DNA from: Nitrospira sp.
Lineage (GTDB): Bacteria > Nitrospirota > Nitrospiria > Nitrospirales > Nitrospiraceae
Direction: 5' to 3'
DNA length: 64,000 nt
Assembly (NCBI GenBank): GCA_016788885.1
Contig: JAEURX010000037.1
Coordinates: forward strand, 1 to 64,000
The notes under the pieces were generated by a model, which did no database searches, was not told the DNA's origin, and saw only the letters and a list, made by a program, of their open reading frames with translations. Positions 9,602 to 20,237 of this stretch are shown here, piece after piece. Position 1 is the first letter of the stretch; the number at the start of each line of letters is the position of its first letter. A program made the translations under genes and the position numbers.

Positions 9602-10519
9602 TTAGCCTGGGATCGGAAAGCGTCGCGTGAGTTGTTCCAGCTTCTCGTCGAGCTCGCCGAAGGTTTCCAGCACGTCGATATCGGCTTCCGTAAAATGCCG
9701 CCGCATGGCAAGTGCTCCCTGGCCGCCGGCCAAGAGTGCGGACAGCGGCGCCACCTCTTGTGCCAGCGCGTGAATCAATTCACTTGCCGGTAAGTCCGGG
9801 AGTGCGATGGTACAGGAGAGAATGGTCAAGTCCGGGGCGACTTCACGACAGAGGTTGCTGAGGGAGAGGATGGGGACGTTGGCTCCGAGGTAGTAAACCC
9901 GACAGCCGCGAACTCGGCAACGATAGGCGACGGCGAGCGAGGCAAGATCGTGTTCCTCGCCGGGCGGGCAAGCCACGACGACCGTGGCGCCGAACTCCGC
10001 GACCGGGAGTTGGTTCATGGCCGCATACAATTTTTGTTTGATCTGGCTGGTCACGTAATGCTCGACCGCCACGCTGATGCGGCCGGTATGCCACAGCTGC
10101 CCCACACGTTCCTGCAGCGGCAGCAGAATCCCGTGGAGTGCTTCTTCGAAGGGCACTACCGCCACGGCACCGTTTAATCGCTTTTCGAAGGTGATCCGAT
10201 CGAGTGGTTCCAGGGCGATTAGCAGTTCTCGCAACAGCCGATCAAACGTATTGTCGACGACGGCCATTCGTGGCCCCGATGTGCGCATGCGGTTGATTAG
10301 CTCTTCCCGTCCCGCTTTGGCCAGATCTCCGATTGATGCTCCCGCATCCAGCTGCTGCTTGAGATACCGCAGCAGTGCCACGTCCTCATCTGAATAGTTG
10401 CGATAGCGGTTGGCTCCTCTGGTCGGTTTGAGCAGAGCAAATCGACGCTCCCACACGCGAATGACGTCGCGGCTCAGGCCGGTGAGTTTCGCAACCCTAT
10501 GAATTCTGTGAGTATTCAT
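9602..10519 (-). CDS. MerR-family regulator with B12-binding domain (CarH/LitR-type photoreceptor)
   Basis: A 305-residue protein. Residues 1-75 form a MerR winged helix (HRVAKLTGLSRDVIRVWERR). Residues about 95-170 are a four-helix B12-capping domain with W143 and the E153-H154 pair of the W-x9-EH motif (LWHTGRISVAVEH). Residues about 175-300 are a cobalamin-binding Rossmann fold with the lower-ligand His at 190 (CPPGEEHDLASL), followed by GANVPILSL and LLAGGQGAL. In characterised CarH proteins this set binds adenosylcobalamin: the dark tetramer represses DNA and light breaks the Co-C bond. The usual Gly after the ligand His (ExHxxG) is Ala here. It is divergent from the 10.6-20 kb gene run with an operator array between them, so autoregulation and control of that run are likely. 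Confidence 0.92.
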   Translation of the reverse strand: MNTHRIHRVAKLTGLSRDVIRVWERRFALLKPTRGANRYRNYSDEDVALLRYLKQQLDAGASIGDLAKAGREELINRMRTSGPRMAVVDNTFDRLLRELLIALEPLDRITFEKRLNGAVAVVPFEEALHGILLPLQERVGQLWHTGRISVAVEHYVTSQIKQKLYAAMNQLPVAEFGATVVVACPPGEEHDLASLAVAYRCRVRGCRVYYLGANVPILSLSNLCREVAPDLTILSCTIALPDLPASELIHALAQEVAPLSALLAGGQGALAMRRHFTEADIDVLETFGELDEKLEQLTRRFPIPG

Positions 10520-10530
10520 CGCGTGGATTC

Positions 10531-10559
10531 AGTATAGATTCATGTCCAATGTTTGTCAA
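10531..10559 (-). promoter_or_regulatory. Consensus promoter of the CarH-like regulator gene
   Basis: On the minus strand TTGACA (10559-10554), a 17-bp spacer and TATACT (10536-10531) lie 12 bp upstream of the regulator's ATG. One inverted copy of the 12-bp operator motif lies inside the spacer and touches the -35 box, as expected for autorepression. Confidence 0.75.
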
Positions 10560-10638
10560 ATATTATCCCATAAAAACTCTTGACACGTTGGACATATAGG
10601 GTGTAAACATTGGACATACACGTTGCAAACATTGGACA
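10543..10638. promoter_or_regulatory. Four-copy operator array, probable CarH/LitR binding sites
   Basis: AAACATTGGACA occurs exactly at 10605-10616 and 10627-10638, as the variant ACACGTTGGACA at 10583-10594, and inverted (TGTCCAATGTTT) at 10543-10554. The three direct copies start exactly 22 bp apart, two helical turns. Known CarH operators use 11-bp direct repeats, and 22 is twice that. The array spans the divergent promoters of the regulator gene and the photoprotection gene run. Confidence 0.75.
10580..10607 (+). promoter_or_regulatory. Candidate promoter of the light-responsive gene run
   Basis: TTGACA (10580-10585), a 16-bp spacer and TGTAAA (10602-10607, 4 of 6 matches to the -10 consensus). 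Two operator copies overlap its -35 and -10 regions, so a bound repressor would block it. It lies 50 bp upstream of the first gene. Confidence 0.5.
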
Positions 10639-10657
10639 CTGTTGCGCAGGAGTAACC

Positions 10658-10954
10658 ATGGCAGCACAACACGCGACCGAAGAAATCGTAGGACGAAGCG
10701 AGACCCGGGTCGAGGTTCTGAAGTTCCGGCAGGAGTCGAGCTGCACGCGATGCGGTGGGCTCATGGTTCCTGATTTCTGTACGGATCTGCTGAACGGTTC
10801 CGGCTCGCTCGACTGCTCCACCCTCCGCTGCGTGCAATGCGGTGACATCGTCGATCCGGTCATTCGGTGGAATCGTCATCTCCAGCGACTGGCCGGTGCA
10901 GCCCGCGAGCTGAAGGTCGTGGGTCAGTTCTCCCGCGCTCAGGTGCCCGCGTAG
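10658..10954 (+). CDS. Zinc-ribbon protein, 98 residues (paralogue 1)
   Basis: The ATG at 10658 follows CAGGAG. The core has two Cys pairs: CTRCGGLMVPDF...DLL, then LRCVQCGDIVDPVI and NR. The pattern C-x2-CGGL...DLL...G-x-(L/I)D...C-x2-CG...DPVI-x2-NR is shared with the protein at 14549-14905, so the two are paralogues within one gene run. It is probably a soluble metal-binding protein; its role is unknown. It is the first gene after the operator array. Confidence 0.75.
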   Translation: MAAQHATEEIVGRSETRVEVLKFRQESSCTRCGGLMVPDFCTDLLNGSGSLDCSTLRCVQCGDIVDPVIRWNRHLQRLAGAARELKVVGQFSRAQVPA

Positions 10955-11001: not shown

Positions 11002-11961
11002 ATGCGGAGTCGAAAATCTGTGCAGATAGGCATAGCGGCAGTGCTGTTAACGGGGGCCGCGACGTTGGCGGTCGCGGCGGAATCGGCGGGCGATAAGGAT
11101 ATGGTGCTGATTCCGAAAGGAGAATTCACCATGGGGAGCAATGAGCATGCCGATGAGGCCCGGCATCAGGTGGTGCTGGACGCCTACCTCATCGATAAGT
11201 TCGAGGCGTCGAATGCGCGATACAAGGAATTCATGCGGGCGACCGGCCATCCCGCCCCGGCCTACTGGGACGATCCGCGTCTCAGTAAGCCTGAACAGCC
11301 GGTTGTTGGGGTGAGCTGGACCGACGCCAACGCCTTTTGCAAGTGGGATGGCAAGCGGTTGCCCACGGAAGCGGAATGGGAAAAGGCGGCTAAGGGACCG
11401 GAGGGCGACAATCACTATCCGTGGGGCCATCATCTCGACCCGAAAAAGGCCAACTATGGTCAAAACGTGGGACGCACCATGCCGGTCGATTCCTATCCCG
11501 AGGGCGTGAGCGGATACGGCGTCTACCACATGGCGGGCAATGTCTTCGAGTGGGTGGACGATTGGTACGATCCGAAATATTACCGGAGCAGTAACGCGCT
11601 GAATCCTCGCGGCGCGGACAAAGGCTACAACTTCGCGAACCAAGGTCCGGTCAAGGTCTTGCGCGGCGGCTCCTGGCTCGCTCCGGAAACCTCCCTGCAC
11701 ACCAGTCACCGATTCTGGAATCAGCCGGAAAACAATTCCTACGGTGTTGGATTGGGCTTCCGCTGTGCCAAGTCGGTCACCGTGGTGTCGGAGGAAGCGG
11801 CTCAAGCCGGACGTGACGCATTTATCCAGGCACTCGTCGGGATGGGTGCGGAGAAGCACGCAGATGCCCTTGCGTCTATTGAGAAGGCGCTCGCGGCAGA
11901 TCCAGACAACCGAGAGTATCAGGCGACTCGAGAGCTCATCAAGAACAGCATGAAGAAGTGA
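11002..11961 (+). CDS. SUMF1-fold exported protein A
   Basis: A 319-residue protein with a Sec signal peptide (VQIGIAAVLLTGAATLAVAA). A full SUMF1/FGE-like domain follows: MVLIPKGEFTMGSNEHADEA, YLIDKFEASNARYKEFM, KRLPTEAEWEKAAKG, YHMAGNVFEWVDDWYD, VKVLRGGSWLAPETS, VGLGFRCAKS. The Cys pair that formylglycine-generating enzymes carry after RGGSW is absent, so sulfatase activation is unlikely. The last 45 residues form a TPR-like helical hairpin (KHADALASIEKALAADPDN). A strong AAGGAGGT site sets the start at 11002. A relative at 13286 and a broken copy at 12025 follow. Confidence 0.85.
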   Translation: MRSRKSVQIGIAAVLLTGAATLAVAAESAGDKDMVLIPKGEFTMGSNEHADEARHQVVLDAYLIDKFEASNARYKEFMRATGHPAPAYWDDPRLSKPEQPVVGVSWTDANAFCKWDGKRLPTEAEWEKAAKGPEGDNHYPWGHHLDPKKANYGQNVGRTMPVDSYPEGVSGYGVYHMAGNVFEWVDDWYDPKYYRSSNALNPRGADKGYNFANQGPVKVLRGGSWLAPETSLHTSHRFWNQPENNSYGVGLGFRCAKSVTVVSEEAAQAGRDAFIQALVGMGAEKHADALASIEKALAADPDNREYQATRELIKNSMKK

Positions 11962-12024
11962 TCCGTGACGCAGAGGGGCGGCGATGTCCGCCTTCCTGCC
12001 GCACCGCGGGCAAGGAGGTACGGC

Positions 12025-12867
12025 ATGAATATGATGAGACACGTGCTTGGAGCAGGTTTGGCCATGGGTGTGGTCATCGCGTTGCCGGTAGCCCATACGG
12101 AAGAATCCGACATTCCGAGCGATACGGTGTGCGTGGGCAAGGGCCGTCTGTGATGGGATTGGACAAGACTGAGCTGGCCAAGTCAGACCGGCGGCTCTCC
12201 ATGTACGTCAAGCGCATGAATACACCCTGGTCAGCGGAAGCGTTTCACGACGAAGGTCCGGCCCATATGGTGTTCTTGGATTCGTACCTCATCGACACGT
12301 ATGAGGTGGCGAACAAGGACTATGGGGAATTCATTTGTGCCACCGGCCATCCCGCGCCGGCCTCTTGGGATGATCCTCGTCTGAACACGCCACGTCAGCC
12401 TGTGGTCGGTGTGAATGGGATCGATGCCAAGAGCTAACTGCGAGTTCCGGGGGAAGTGCCTTCCGACGGAGGCGGAGTGGGAGATGGCGGCTCACGGGCC
12501 GAACGGCAACCTGTATCCCTGGGGCAACGATGTCGATTCCGATACGGCCAACTATGATCGACATCATGAGGCGACCCTGCCCGTGGATTCGCATCCGGAG
12601 GGTGCCATCCGGTCGACGCATCGGTTCTGGAATCACCCGCTCAACAACAGCTACGGGGTGGGGTTAGGGTTCCGCTGCGCCAAGAACGCGCCGTCTGATT
12701 GGGAACAGCGCATTCGCGACAGCAACATCACCGCATGAGTGGAAATGGGCCGGGAGCGATTTGCCGAGGCGTTGCAGGCGGTCAATCGGGGGCTGGTGAT
12801 GGATTCAGTTAACGTAGAACTCCTGGAACTGCGTCCCCTGATCGAGCAGTCGATAGCCCGACGCTGA
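12025..12867 (+). pseudogene. SUMF1-fold protein B, broken copy of protein A
   Basis: It begins with AAGGAGGT and a signal peptide (MMRHVLGAGLAMGVVIALPV), but this frame stops at 12153. Homology continues in a second frame (VFLDSYLIDTYEVANKDYGE to TPRQPVVGV), which stops at 12437, and then in a third frame from KCLPTEAEWEMAAHG. About 62 residues are missing between VDSHPEG and STHRFWNHP, including the parts equivalent to MAGNVFEWVDDW and VLRGGSW. An in-frame TGA (12736-12738) then interrupts the C-terminal tail, whose homologue reads on as EMGRERFAEALQAVNRG. Two frameshifts, one deletion and one stop make a functional product implausible. Confidence 0.88.
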
Positions 12868-14458: not shown

Positions 14459-14548
14459 GTCACGTGTGGCGAGTGGGTGTGCTGCACCGTGATCAGGGAG
14501 AAGAGATTCAGGGAAGACTATTTATTTTTCTCGAAGTCGGGGGTTCCA

Positions 14549-14905
14549 ATGGAAACACATGGGACGCCGGAATCATACACTCCTTCGCAAGAGGGCAACC
14601 ATCGATGCCCTCGTTGCGGTGGGCTCTTGTTGACGCAACAGTACATCGATCTCCTGGACGACACTGGTCAGATTGATATCACGGCATGGCACTGCACGAT
14701 CTGCGGGGAGGTGCTCGATCCCGTGATACTGAAGAATCGGTATGGCCCTCCGCCGAACTTGCTGTATGGCACAAAAGAGCGCAAGTTCAGTCAGCGTGTG
14801 ACGGCTCTCCCGGGCCAGCCGGGATCGAAACCGGCAACAGATTTGGGTGAAGCAAGGGGCAGCAGAAATTCCCCTGAGGGCGGGTCTCCCATCGAACCCT
14901 CGTAG
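14549..14905 (+). CDS. Zinc-ribbon protein, 118 residues (paralogue 2)
   Basis: The core CPRCGGLLLTQQYIDLLDD, then WHCTICGEVLDPVILKNR, matches the protein at 10658-10954 position by position, with four Cys in two C-x2-C pairs. A basic, Pro/Gly-rich C-terminal tail of about 50 residues is added. I chose the ATG at 14549; a GTG at 14477 would add 24 residues not shared with paralogue 1. It lies directly upstream of the TIGR01777 gene. Confidence 0.7.
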   Translation: METHGTPESYTPSQEGNHRCPRCGGLLLTQQYIDLLDDTGQIDITAWHCTICGEVLDPVILKNRYGPPPNLLYGTKERKFSQRVTALPGQPGSKPATDLGEARGSRNSPEGGSPIEPS

Positions 14906-14933
14906 AAACTTCTTGTCGGCAAGGACGCGAGAT

Positions 14934-15851
14934 ATGCGGATTGTCATCACCGGAGGAACGGGATTCATCGGGCACGCGCTGGTCGACGCGTTGACGCGCC
15001 AGCAGCATGATGTGGTGGTTCTGTGTCGGAAGCCCGCACGATCGGTTCACTCGTCTGCTGTGTACGTGGAGTGGGATGCTCGAACCGTGGGCCCTTGGAG
15101 AGCTGAGCTACAAGAGGCTGATGCGGTCGTCAACTTGGCCGGTGCCCCCATTGCCGAAGGTCGGTGGACGCCGGCCCGTAAGCGTCTGCTGCTGGAAAGC
15201 CGAACCGTTAGCACCAGACTATTGGTCGATGCTCTCGCTGCCCGTATCTCGCCACTTCCTGTGTTCATCACGGCGTCGGGCATTGGGTACTACGGTGCGA
15301 GTGACGACCGGGTCCTCGACGAGGGGTCGGCACTCGGAGAAGGATTCTTGGCGGACTTGTCTGCAGCGTGGGAGGCAGAGGCGTTGCGTGCCGCCCAGTT
15401 CCGTACGCGGGTCGTGGTGCTGCGTACGGGTATGGTGCTTGAAGAGGACGGTGGGGCATTGCCGAAAATGTTGCTACCGTTTCGCTTCTTCGCCGGGGGG
15501 CCGGTCCTGCCCGGCACGCAGTGGGTCTCGTGGATTCACCGCGCGGATCTGATCGGACTTATTCAATGGGCGATGACGACGCCGACCGTGTGTGGTCCGC
15601 TCAATGCCGTGGCTCCTGAGGCGGTAACGATGAAGACCTTTTGTACGACGGTCGGCAGAGTGCTCCATCGTCCCTCGTGGCTGCCGGTCCCGAGCTTGGC
15701 CTTGCAGCTGGCGCTGGGGGAGCTGGGGACATTGATGACGACCGGTCAACGTGTGGACCCGGCGAAGGCGAGAGCGGGCGGCTACGCCTTCCGGTATCCG
15801 ACGCTGGAGCCGGCGTTACGAGCGATTGTCGGTGGGGAGCGTCGGCCATGA
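14934..15851 (+). CDS. TIGR01777-family SDR (YfcH-like nucleotide-sugar epimerase fold)
   Basis: A 305-residue protein starting MRIVITGGTGFIGHALVDAL (GxxGFIG NAD(P)-binding loop). DAVVNLAGAPIAEGRW, the active-site region ITASGIGYYG and the C-terminal DUF1731 region follow. AAGGA precedes the ATG at 14934. Members of this family recur in CarH/photolyase loci of other bacteria (general knowledge). The substrate is unknown. Its stop overlaps the next start (ATGA at 15848). Confidence 0.92.
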   Translation: MRIVITGGTGFIGHALVDALTRQQHDVVVLCRKPARSVHSSAVYVEWDARTVGPWRAELQEADAVVNLAGAPIAEGRWTPARKRLLLESRTVSTRLLVDALAARISPLPVFITASGIGYYGASDDRVLDEGSALGEGFLADLSAAWEAEALRAAQFRTRVVVLRTGMVLEEDGGALPKMLLPFRFFAGGPVLPGTQWVSWIHRADLIGLIQWAMTTPTVCGPLNAVAPEAVTMKTFCTTVGRVLHRPSWLPVPSLALQLALGELGTLMTTGQRVDPAKARAGGYAFRYPTLEPALRAIVGGERRP

Positions 15852-17416: not shown

Positions 17417-17848
17417 ATGCTGAGACAGACCACTCAACGCGGCATCGATCTCAAGTTATTCGGCGCCATGTTTCTCCTCGTGGGCTTGATCGATATGCTC
17501 ATCATCGAAGGGTTCCCGGCCTATGCGCTGAAGCTGTTCGGGGTCACGATCGCGGGACCACTGGCCTACCTCGTCAAACTGCATTCGCCGGCCGCCCACT
17601 TCCTGATCGGCTATGGCTTCGTGTTTTTGCGCCCCTGGGCCTGGGGGTTGGCCATGGCCTATGGAGGATTCGGCCTGATGAGTGAGCTGATGAACCAGTT
17701 TCAATTCGGCTACCACCATCTGCGTACGGGTTTCATGGCTACAACGGTCCTGTTTCTCTGCTATGTTTCGTGGCGACGAGTGTTGTTTGTCGATCCGTTG
17801 CCGCCACCGACTCGGTTGGCGTCTTCGTCCCCAGAGGTGCATTTATGA
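17417..17848 (+). CDS. Multi-span membrane protein, 143 residues
   Basis: Hydrophobic helices at about residues 13-32, 42-55, 60-85 and 103-120 (LFGAMFLLVGLIDMLIIEGF; AHFLIGYGFVFLRPWAWGLA). A strong GAAGGAGG site precedes the ATG. The 3' end overlaps the photolyase start (ATGA at 17845), so expression is coupled to DNA photorepair. The family is unknown. Confidence 0.7.
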   Translation: MLRQTTQRGIDLKLFGAMFLLVGLIDMLIIEGFPAYALKLFGVTIAGPLAYLVKLHSPAAHFLIGYGFVFLRPWAWGLAMAYGGFGLMSELMNQFQFGYHHLRTGFMATTVLFLCYVSWRRVLFVDPLPPPTRLASSSPEVHL

Positions 17849-19287
17849 AGGGGCTGGTCTGGTTTCGTCGAGATCTCCGGATACATGACAATCCTGCGCT
17901 GTCAGCCGCCTGCAAGGAGTGCCGGGAGATCGTGCCCCTGTTCGTGTTCGACGAGCCTCTGCTGCGTGATCATGTCTTCGGGGCCGCCTGTGTCGGGTTC
18001 ATGTTGGGATGCCTGGAGGATGTACGCCGCTCCTTGGCTGAGCGCGGAGTGACGCTCCTCTGGCGGACGGGTGAGCCGGTGGAGACGGTGTTGCGGACGG
18101 CTCAGGACCTGGCGGTGGACGCGGTGTATTGGAATCGTGATTATGAGCCAGGCGCCATCGATCGGGATCGAATCGCACAGCAGCAGTTGGCTCGACAGGG
18201 TCGTACCGTCAAGACCTTTAAGGACCATGTGGTGTTTGAGGCTGAGGAGGTGCGGAGTCTGACCGGGGATCCGTTTCAACGGTATAGTGCGTATCGCGAT
18301 CGGTGGTGGGCGAAGTGGCGTGCGGCCGCGCCGCCTGTGCTGCCTGTGCCGACCCTTCCATGCGCGGGGAACACGGTATCTTCCATGCCCCCCTGGCCGA
18401 AGCCGGAAGATCTTGGCTATACGTCGGTGCCGATGTGGATCGAGCCGGGTGAACAGGCGGCGCGAGCCAGATTGCAGTGGTTTTTACAAGGGCCGATCCA
18501 TCGCTACGTCAGCGGGAGAAATCTTCCGGCGCAGGACGGGACATCCAAGTTGTCCCCGCATGTGCGGTTCGGAACGATCAGTGCGCGCACGATGGTGCAT
18601 GCCGCACTCCACACCCTCTCGCAGGGCGGACAGGTCTCTCGCGCCGATGTCTTCACCTGGATCGACGAGTTGGTGTGGCGGGAGTTTTTTCAGCAGGTGT
18701 TGACGGCGTTTCCGCATGTCGCAGAGGGGCCGTTCAAGGCGAAGCCCGGACTGCCCCCTCCGCGTTCTGCCGGGCCTGAGCGCGACCGGTTGTTTGTCGC
18801 CTGGAGTCAGGGTCAGACCGGCTATCCGATCGTCGACGCCGGGATGCGTCAGTTGAACAAGACCGGATGGATGCATAATCGCGTGCGCATGATCGTGGCG
18901 TCGTTTCTGGTGAAGGATCTTCGTCTGGATTGGCGAAGCGGTGAACGGTACTTTATGGAGCAGCTGGTGGACGGTGACCTGGCAGCCAACAACGGCAACT
19001 GGCAGTGGTGCGCGTCGACCGGTACGGATGCCATGCAAGGCTATCGCATTTTTAACCCTACCCTTCAAAGTGCGAAGTTCGATCCAGACGGGGGGTATGT
19101 GCGCCAGTATGTCCCGGAACTGAGTCAGGTACCGACCAAGTGGATTCACGAACCGTCGCTCATGCCCAAGGAGGAACAGGTGCGGGCTCGATGCCGCATC
19201 GGCATCGACTACCCTGAGCCGATCGTCGATCATCGGCAGGCGCGTCAGGAATATTTGGATCTCGGGAAGCAGCAGGTGGCCCCGTGA
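17845..19287 (+). CDS. phrB: Deoxyribodipyrimidine photolyase (class I)
   Basis: 480 residues. The N-terminal antenna domain begins MKGLVWFRRDLRIHDNPAL. The catalytic FAD domain shows SRADVFTWIDELVWREFF, MRQLNKTGWMHNRVRMIVAS and GDLAANNGNWQWCASTGTDA, then YRIFNPTLQSAKFDPDG. These match class I CPD photolyases, which repair cyclobutane pyrimidine dimers using blue light and FADH-. The start at 17845 overlaps the upstream membrane-protein gene, and the stop overlaps the GTG of the next gene. Placement behind a CarH-type photoreceptor supports light-induced repair. Confidence 0.96.
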   Translation: MKGLVWFRRDLRIHDNPALSAACKECREIVPLFVFDEPLLRDHVFGAACVGFMLGCLEDVRRSLAERGVTLLWRTGEPVETVLRTAQDLAVDAVYWNRDYEPGAIDRDRIAQQQLARQGRTVKTFKDHVVFEAEEVRSLTGDPFQRYSAYRDRWWAKWRAAAPPVLPVPTLPCAGNTVSSMPPWPKPEDLGYTSVPMWIEPGEQAARARLQWFLQGPIHRYVSGRNLPAQDGTSKLSPHVRFGTISARTMVHAALHTLSQGGQVSRADVFTWIDELVWREFFQQVLTAFPHVAEGPFKAKPGLPPPRSAGPERDRLFVAWSQGQTGYPIVDAGMRQLNKTGWMHNRVRMIVASFLVKDLRLDWRSGERYFMEQLVDGDLAANNGNWQWCASTGTDAMQGYRIFNPTLQSAKFDPDGGYVRQYVPELSQVPTKWIHEPSLMPKEEQVRARCRIGIDYPEPIVDHRQARQEYLDLGKQQVAP

Positions 19288-20237
19288 CGTCGCCGGCGCT
19301 TCGCCTCGGCATCAGCCGGTGTTTGCTCGGCGAACAGGTTCGGTTTGATGGCGGCCACAAGCGGGACCAGTTTCTGACGGAGGTGTTAGGCCGATATGTG
19401 GAATGGGTTCCGGTGTGTCCGGAAGTCGAGGCGGGGCTCGGCACGCCGCGTGAAGCGATGCGACTGGTAGGAAATCCGCTGCGGCCGAGCCTGGTGTCGA
19501 TCAAGAGCGGGCAGGATCACACCCTTGCCTTGGAGGTCATGACGAACAGACGCCTGGCTGACCTGGAAGGGGTGGATCTGTCGGGGTTTGTGTTCAAAAA
19601 AGATTCTCCCAGTTGCGGAGTGGAACGTGTCCGAACGTACAATGAGCATGGCATGCCCAATCGCAAGGGCGTGGGCCTCTTCGCGCGAGCCTTCGTCGGA
19701 CGGTTCCCGCTTGTCCCGGTCGAGGAGGAAGGCCGGCTGAGTGATCCCATGTTACGAGAAAATTTCATTGAGCGGGTCTTCTGTTATCGGCGCTGGCAGG
19801 ATTTGATCCGTGGCGGGGTGACGAGGCAAGCGGTAGTACGATTTCACACAATTCATAAATACCTGCTCCTGGCCCACAGCGCTCCGCACTACCGCCAGCT
19901 TGGCCGGTTGGTGGCGCAAGTCCATGAGTGTCGCCCCAAAGACCTGGCCCTTCGATACGGTGAACTCTTCATGCAGGCCCTGGCGGTGCGGGCGACGGTA
20001 CGCAAGCACGTCAATGTCCTGCAACATATCCTGGGGCATTTCAAGGATCGCCTTGCTGCGCAGGAAAAAGCGGAACTATTGGGTGTGATTGCGGACTATC
20101 ATCAGGGACTCACGCCGTTGATCGTGCCCCTGACCTTGATCAAACACTACGTGCAGGTATTTGATGTCGAATATATTCGCGAGCAGGTGTATCTGAATCC
20201 CCATCCGAAGGAATTGATGTTACGTAATCACGTATAA
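19284..20237 (+). CDS. DUF523 and DUF1722 domain protein (YbgA-like)
   Basis: 317 residues. The N-terminal DUF523 shows LRLGISRCLLGEQVRFDGGH, PVCPEVEAGLGTPREAM and KKDSPSCG (conserved Cys). The C-terminal DUF1722 shows RWQDLIRGG, VRFHTIHKYLLLAHS and LTLIKHYV. GTG start overlapping the photolyase stop. The YbgA-photolyase pair also occurs in E. coli and other bacteria (ybgA-phr), which supports a shared role in light or DNA-damage stress. The biochemical function is not settled. Confidence 0.93.
   Translation: MTSPALRLGISRCLLGEQVRFDGGHKRDQFLTEVLGRYVEWVPVCPEVEAGLGTPREAMRLVGNPLRPSLVSIKSGQDHTLALEVMTNRRLADLEGVDLSGFVFKKDSPSCGVERVRTYNEHGMPNRKGVGLFARAFVGRFPLVPVEEEGRLSDPMLRENFIERVFCYRRWQDLIRGGVTRQAVVRFHTIHKYLLLAHSAPHYRQLGRLVAQVHECRPKDLALRYGELFMQALAVRATVRKHVNVLQHILGHFKDRLAAQEKAELLGVIADYHQGLTPLIVPLTLIKHYVQVFDVEYIREQVYLNPHPKELMLRNHV

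Follow-up and report, generated by a model that had tools for sequence, protein, structure and literature searches.

A probable bidirectional CarH-type operator of 11-bp repeats between a B12-binding regulator gene and a divergent photolyase operon in Nitrospira

Overview of the locus

In the window, which is a 64,000-nt stretch of a Nitrospira sp. contig, a CarH/LitR-like regulator gene and a divergent repair operon are separated by a 138-bp intergenic gap that carries an array of 11-bp nnnnTnnACAn repeats. We consider it very likely that this array is a bidirectional CarH (LitR class I) operator, at which the regulator would repress both its own gene and the divergent operon in the dark with adenosylcobalamin (AdoCbl), and from which light would release it. 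The sequence of the array, its conservation, its co-occurrence with the regulator gene, the geometry of the promoters and the protein family of the regulator were established here. The repair operon is probably the target repressed by this vitamin B12-based light sensor.

Repeats in the intergenic gap

The 12-mer AAACATTGGACA is present in the gap at 10543-10554 (minus strand), 10605-10616 (plus strand) and 10627-10638 (plus strand), and a copy with two mismatches, ACACGTTGGACA, is located at 10583-10594 (plus strand). The earlier note had listed exactly these copies, and our sequence check found the two exact direct copies, the inverted copy and the variant at those positions; the 22-bp steps that it described between the direct starts (10583, 10605, and 10627) are likewise present in the window. 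An additional minus-strand copy, TAATATTTGACA (10554-10565), which the earlier note had omitted, lies 11 bp from the inverted copy. A pattern search of the 3.92-Mb assembly revealed 3 exact copies of AAACATTGGACA, all of them inside 96 bp of the gap, and the reversed control pattern had no match in the same 3.9 Mb. Among 1000 dinucleotide-preserving shuffles of the gap, none contained an exactly repeated direct 12-mer, none a set of direct and inverted copies, and none a triple of near copies with equal steps.

According to the published consensus, the CarH operator repeat is nnnnTnnACAn, and degenerate repeats (dr) can replace complete ones (DR) (PMC9304148). Five complete units of the gap match this consensus, and the 12-mer copies fall within the following units:

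10542-10552, minus strand: DR_R2, ACATTGGACAT, complete repeat inside the regulator-promoter spacer, equal to the inverted 12-mer copy (column identity 0.97)
10553-10563, minus strand: DR_R1, ATATTTGACAA, complete repeat in 11-bp tandem with DR_R2, holding the regulator -35 box (mean column identity 0.98)
10585-10595, plus strand: DR_P1, ACGTTGGACAT, complete repeat touching the operon -35 box and occupying the first part of the spacer, equal to the copy at 10583
10607-10617, plus strand: DR_P2, ACATTGGACAT, complete repeat over the operon -10 box and the inferred start, equal to the copy at 10605
10618-10628, plus strand: dr, ACACGTTGCAA, degenerate 11-bp unit in the middle, flanked by DR_P2 and DR_P3
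10629-10639, plus strand: DR_P3, ACATTGGACAC, complete repeat in the leader past the inferred start, equal to the copy at 10627

The 11-bp register is found on both sides of the gap, with DR_R1 and DR_R2 11 bp apart and DR_P2, dr, and DR_P3 spanning 2 × 11 bp. Genome-wide, the scan for operators consisted of pattern searches; the 5 other matches to ACATTGGACA in this genome all lacked neighbouring repeats, and the gap array is the sole such operator found at the stringency used. A triple complete TnnACA tandem at 11 bp was not found anywhere in the genome, window included, unlike in Thermus, which counts against the CarH-operator reading. Published operators in which degenerate repeats replace complete ones likewise lack such a triple tandem (PMC9304148). 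A riboswitch or other leader RNA element was rejected, as the Rfam search returned no match at E ≤ 1.

Geometry of the divergent promoters

Four promoter hexamers are placed in relation to the repeats:

10531-10536, minus strand: regulator -10 box, TATACT (AgTATA is kept in 23 genomes)
10554-10559, minus strand: regulator -35 box, TTGACA, inside DR_R1
10580-10585, plus strand: operon -35 box, TTGACA (kept in all genus genomes except one with TTGACG)
10604-10609, plus strand: inferred operon -10 box, TAAACA (TATACA in most of the family), with a spacer of 18 bp here and 17 bp in most loci

The regulator promoter (minus strand, 10559 to 10531) reads TTGACA-17-TATACT, a near-consensus sigma-70 promoter with 11 of 12 matches, and the inverted copy lies within it, as the earlier note had proposed. 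Its further proposal, that the plus-strand promoter also carries sites, is supported by the promoter geometry: DR_P1 touches the operon -35 box, DR_P2 covers the operon -10 box together with the inferred start, and DR_P3 is located in the operon leader. The operon -35 TTGACA is 9 bp, not 11 bp, from the next TnnACA, a second point that counts against the CarH-operator reading.

The 2 divergent -35 boxes (10554-10585 in the window) keep a constant 25-bp offset in 64 of 76 loci, a constancy for which the variable bases in between give no explanation.

Conservation and co-occurrence with the regulator

The same-genus set included several records named Nitrospira, among them Ca. Nitrospira defluvii FP929003. 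In these genomes the regulator has the same divergent gap, and the array is kept in 23 of 23 aligned orthologues. Mean column identity over the 23 gaps was 0.97–0.98 for DR_R1, DR_R2, DR_P1, and DR_P3 and 0.94 for DR_P2 with the -10 box; the middle unit (columns 10617-10626) reached 0.89, against 0.57–0.71 in the non-site stretches. This pattern points to strong functional constraint on the array.

Co-occurrence was probed with a 20-bp pattern of the regulator-side tandem, allowing at most 2 mismatches. All 24 genus genomes with the regulator had the pattern, as against 0 of 5 without it, and at the family level it was present in 95 of 109 with the regulator and 3 of 66 without; its reversed control gave no match in any genome scanned. 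The coupling of operator and regulator is plain, and since the genomes are related, the Fisher p-values overstate their independence.

These data bear on the alternative that the repeats are merely elements of two back-to-back sigma-70 promoters and form no operator of a regulator. The -35 and -10 hexamers do overlap 3 of the 5 complete repeats, as this alternative would have it. However, the repeats reach well past the hexamers, DR_P3 is past the inferred start and is conserved like the rest, the operator is missing where there is no regulator, and the repeats of the outgroup set (13 loci from other families of the order and class) match the published CarH consensus. We therefore regard the promoter-element explanation as extremely improbable.

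Origin of the 22-bp spacing

The direct copies at 10583, 10605, and 10627 are numbered here copies 1, 2, and 3. Copies 2 and 3 are 22 bp apart in 23 of 23 genus genomes, while for copies 1 and 2 the distance is 21 bp in 18 of the 23 genus loci and 22 bp in the window and 4 other genus genomes. Alignment across Nitrospira, the check put forward in the earlier note, thus upheld the array itself (23/23) and the 22-bp step between copies 2 and 3 (23/23), but the step between copies 1 and 2 is 22 bp in only 5 of 23. Throughout 82 family loci (the mis-placed L039 and L047, which is mostly N, were left out), copy 1 is fixed to the -35 box and copy 2 to the -10 box, and their distance equals the spacer plus 4 bp. 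The operon-promoter spacer is 17 bp in 68 of these loci, 18 bp in 12, and 16 bp in 2; copies 1 and 2 are usually 21 bp apart because each is tied to its own hexamer and the spacer is usually 17 bp.

The distance between copies 2 and 3 has another origin. Every genus member (23 of 23) has a degenerate middle unit that retains CA; ACA is kept in 15 of the 16 other clade-A loci, and among the family loci that remain, 23% have a full TnnACA, such as TATACATTAGACATACATTGAACATACATTAAACAT in L077. The loci with a complete middle repeat are L043, L059, L071, L073, L077, L078, L093, and L096. On the regulator side, a minus-strand TnnACA pair at 11 bp is found in 58 of the 82 loci, and in the outgroups an 11-bp TnnACA pair occurs in 13 of 13 loci against 0.3 expected from shuffles, whereas a 22-bp pair occurs in only 2 of 13. 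The 22 bp from copy 2 to copy 3 arise from an intervening 11-bp unit that is degenerate here and complete or nearly so in relatives; since the middle unit is often complete in wider relatives and the outgroups have 11-bp repeats, the 22 bp are 2 × 11 bp in a DR-dr-DR layout. The 22-bp periodicity of the window has 2 separate causes, that is to say, a degenerate middle repeat between copies 2 and 3 and an 18-bp spacer between copies 1 and 2. The simplest account of the aligned sequences is an ancestral 11-bp array, of which the middle operon-side repeat would have decayed in this genus.

The earlier note had read the steps as a strict 22-bp unit, possibly distinct from the 11-bp CarH repeats. 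Such a distinct class of CarH operator, in which alternate repeats are read and the middle one has no protein contact, would agree with the invariant 22 bp and uniformly degenerate unit between copies 2 and 3 in the genus, and the head-to-tail dimer of T. thermophilus contacts the non-contiguous DR1 and DR3, which are 22 bp apart (PMC9304148). The 21-bp distance that prevails between copies 1 and 2, the 11-bp tandem on the regulator side, the CA or ACA retained in the middle unit of the genus and of most clade-A relatives, the higher identity of that unit than of non-site spacers, and the 11-bp pairs of the outgroups all argue against it. On the middle-unit, spacer, and outgroup evidence the distinct 22-bp class is not supported, and we consider it quite improbable.

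The CarH-like regulator

9602-10519, minus strand: CarH/LitR-like regulator (305 aa) with MerR HTH, B12-binding_2, and B12-binding domains (Pfam, all above cut-off)

The regulator had been named CarH-like in the earlier note, an assignment borne out by Pfam, phmmer, and AlphaFold/Foldseek. The best matches among solved structures are T. thermophilus CarH/LitR (3whp and 5c8d; phmmer E 2.6e-28, residues 4–269). An AlphaFold model from 53 homologues (pLDDT 89, pTM 0.69) was used instead of one from 17 close homologues (pLDDT 64). Foldseek with this model gave 5c8d, 5c8e, and 5c8f as top matches, with E down to 2.0e-18 over 300 columns. Comparison with the CarH structures yielded full-length TM-scores of 0.49–0.60 (by query length) with RMSDs above 10 Å, and the B12 domain alone aligned at about 2.5–3.6 Å over ~200 columns; we read the moderate full-length scores as domains that are differently placed relative to each other in the model.

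The motifs GxxW, EH, GxxH, and GxxxP are reported as the signature of light-responsive cobalamin domains; for the cobalamin motif, the signature paper requires only GxxH (PMC11796333). The regulator has all 4 of them (GQLWHTGRISVAVEH and GEEH...GANVP), and the equivalents of the axial His177 and of Trp131 are invariant across the 53 sequences. Its B12 loop reads ExHxxA and departs from the strict ExHxxG cobalamin motif; the last position among the 53 relatives is G in 36, A in 13, and S in 4, and ExHxxA is a variant inside the group. The Thermus CarH dimer is held by Arg176 and Asp201 (PMC10442372). At the positions of Arg176, Asp201 (dimer), and Gly160 (dimer–dimer), the regulator has E189, N214, and V173, and of the Thermus tetramer contacts checked (Arg176–Asp201 and Gly160/Gly192) it retains only the Gly192 equivalent. 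The oligomer may therefore differ from that of Thermus CarH, and CarH-family proteins are known to differ in oligomer state (PMC9304148). The NCBIfam CarH equivalog NF052513 was the best match, yet at 130 bits against a cut-off of 400, so that the regulator is CarH-like and not the NCBI equivalog. Because of this departure in the B12 loop and of the E, N, and V at the interface positions, we name it CarH-like only.

Two clades of CarH-like proteins exist in the family (L035–L101), about 70–75% and 50–55% identical to the regulator of the window; they often share one genome, and both have an operator of this type.

The divergent operon

The plus-strand run contains the following genes:

10658-10954, plus strand: 98-aa CxxCGG...CxxC protein, first gene of the divergent operon
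11002-11961, plus strand: FGE-sulfatase-domain protein (Pfam PF03781, E 4e-53), a presumed operon member
14928-15851, plus strand: TIGR01777 (YfcH) SDR protein, same-strand run
17842-19287, plus strand: DNA photolyase (Pfam PF03441/PF00875), same-strand run
19284-20237, plus strand: TudS-DUF1722 fusion, a RudS-type tRNA 4-thiouridine desulfidase (Pfam PF04463 and PF08349; RudS as defined in PMC11417400), overlapping the photolyase stop

From the gene order and the mostly short gaps, we infer that the run is one transcript. RudS and photolyase genes have been reported in LitR-controlled light operons (PMC11417400), and genes of these two kinds are typical of LitR-regulated operons (PMC11417400, PMC9758184).

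The 98-aa protein had no Pfam or NCBIfam match. It is one of 2 related small CxxCGG...CxxC proteins in the window (10658-10954 and 14477-14905), and a protein of this strict pattern is encoded by the first divergent gene at at least 73 of 108 regulator loci; the linkage to CarH suggests a shared function. An FGE-like gene is broken across overlapping frames at 11958-12437 and 12415-12738 (11958-12738 in all), and looks like a duplicate in decay, the intact copy being that at 11002-11961.

Proposed mechanism

Characterised CarH proteins occupy their operators in the dark with AdoCbl, which is reversed by light (PMC8156234, PMC9304148), and DNA binding, cofactor, light release, and repression are ascribed to the present regulator by analogy with them. 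The promoter of the regulator gene has its -35 box and spacer covered by the two 11-bp tandem repeats of the minus strand. At the divergent promoter, the plus strand has one repeat over the -35 box and spacer, and the DR-dr-DR set over the -10 box, the inferred start, and the leader. When AdoCbl is present in the dark, an oligomer of the regulator would occupy both sets and block RNA polymerase at both promoters. Light would break the Co–C bond and the oligomer would leave, after which the regulator and the photoprotection genes (photolyase, RudS, FGE-like, and CxxC proteins) would be expressed. It is fairly unlikely that in Nitrospiraceae both divergent promoters, with their -35 boxes at the constant offset, form one nucleoprotein switch, in which a CarH protein of non-Thermus interface binds the repeats of both strands as one assembly and reads every second repeat on the operon side.

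Instead of light, the supply of B12 or another signal might govern the B12-MerR protein and its operator. Nitrospira marina is a B12 auxotroph (PMC8115632), so that occupancy could track B12 availability, and the ExHxxA loop and altered interface residues would fit such a role. Against it, all 4 motifs of the light signature are kept and the operon carries a photolyase and RudS, and a B12-supply or other non-light switch is in our judgement unlikely.

Comparison with known operators and the wider regulon

The light-responsive CarH operator favoured here resembles the Myxococcus xanthus Pcrt operator of CarH/CarA, which is arranged as DR1-dr2-DR3-DR4-dr5 with the complete DR1 and DR3 22 bp apart (PMC9304148): both have 11-bp nnnnTnnACAn repeats, a complete pair 22 bp apart around a degenerate unit, and a -35 TTGACA inside a repeat. 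The repeats of the window differ in being on both strands over two divergent promoters, with non-carotenoid genes as targets. The published uninterrupted-tandem CarH operator shares the TnnACA core and has repeats that cover the -35 or -10 box, whereas the window has a two-repeat tandem, a single repeat, and a DR-dr-DR set. In the Sorangiineae carH–crtI gap, carH is also divergent from its target with DR and dr units between them (PMC9304148), but there one DR is combined with two or three drs, and the window has 5 complete units that are conserved in the family. Class II LitR proteins of Pseudomonas (PplR1/PmlR2) are likewise MerR-type light repressors whose targets include photolyase, with TnnACA-like TGTACA boxes over the -35 box and downstream of the start; their boxes, however, have the form T(G/A)TACA-N12-TGTA(C/T)A (PMC9758184). 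We see in the array a clean case, spread across the phylum, of a switch type that is already known, and the DR-dr-DR layout behind the 22-bp spacing, which the earlier note had offered as a possibly distinct arrangement, is not new, having been described at Pcrt (PMC9304148).

Photolyases have been noted in Nitrospira, which are nitrite oxidisers, and no light regulator in Nitrospira was found in the literature searched. With this locus, Nitrospira has a precise candidate for the operator of a B12-based light switch and for the operon under its control, and some 100 operator variants found in nature, together with their regulators, are suited to the study of how CarH tolerates degenerate repeats and altered interfaces. 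If the switch is confirmed, photoprotection in Nitrospira would depend jointly on light and exogenous B12.

Operator control of the sigma-factor homologue of the own genome was rejected, because no such operator site was found upstream of it. In L134, L137, L138, L139, L144, L145, and L148, a CarH-type tandem lies between glutathione-peroxidase-like and divergent RpoD-like sigma genes (names read from the translations), which suggests a light regulon that may include a sigma factor in Nitrospiraceae outside this genus. In several relatives, the same 20-bp tandem precedes further CxxCGG genes.
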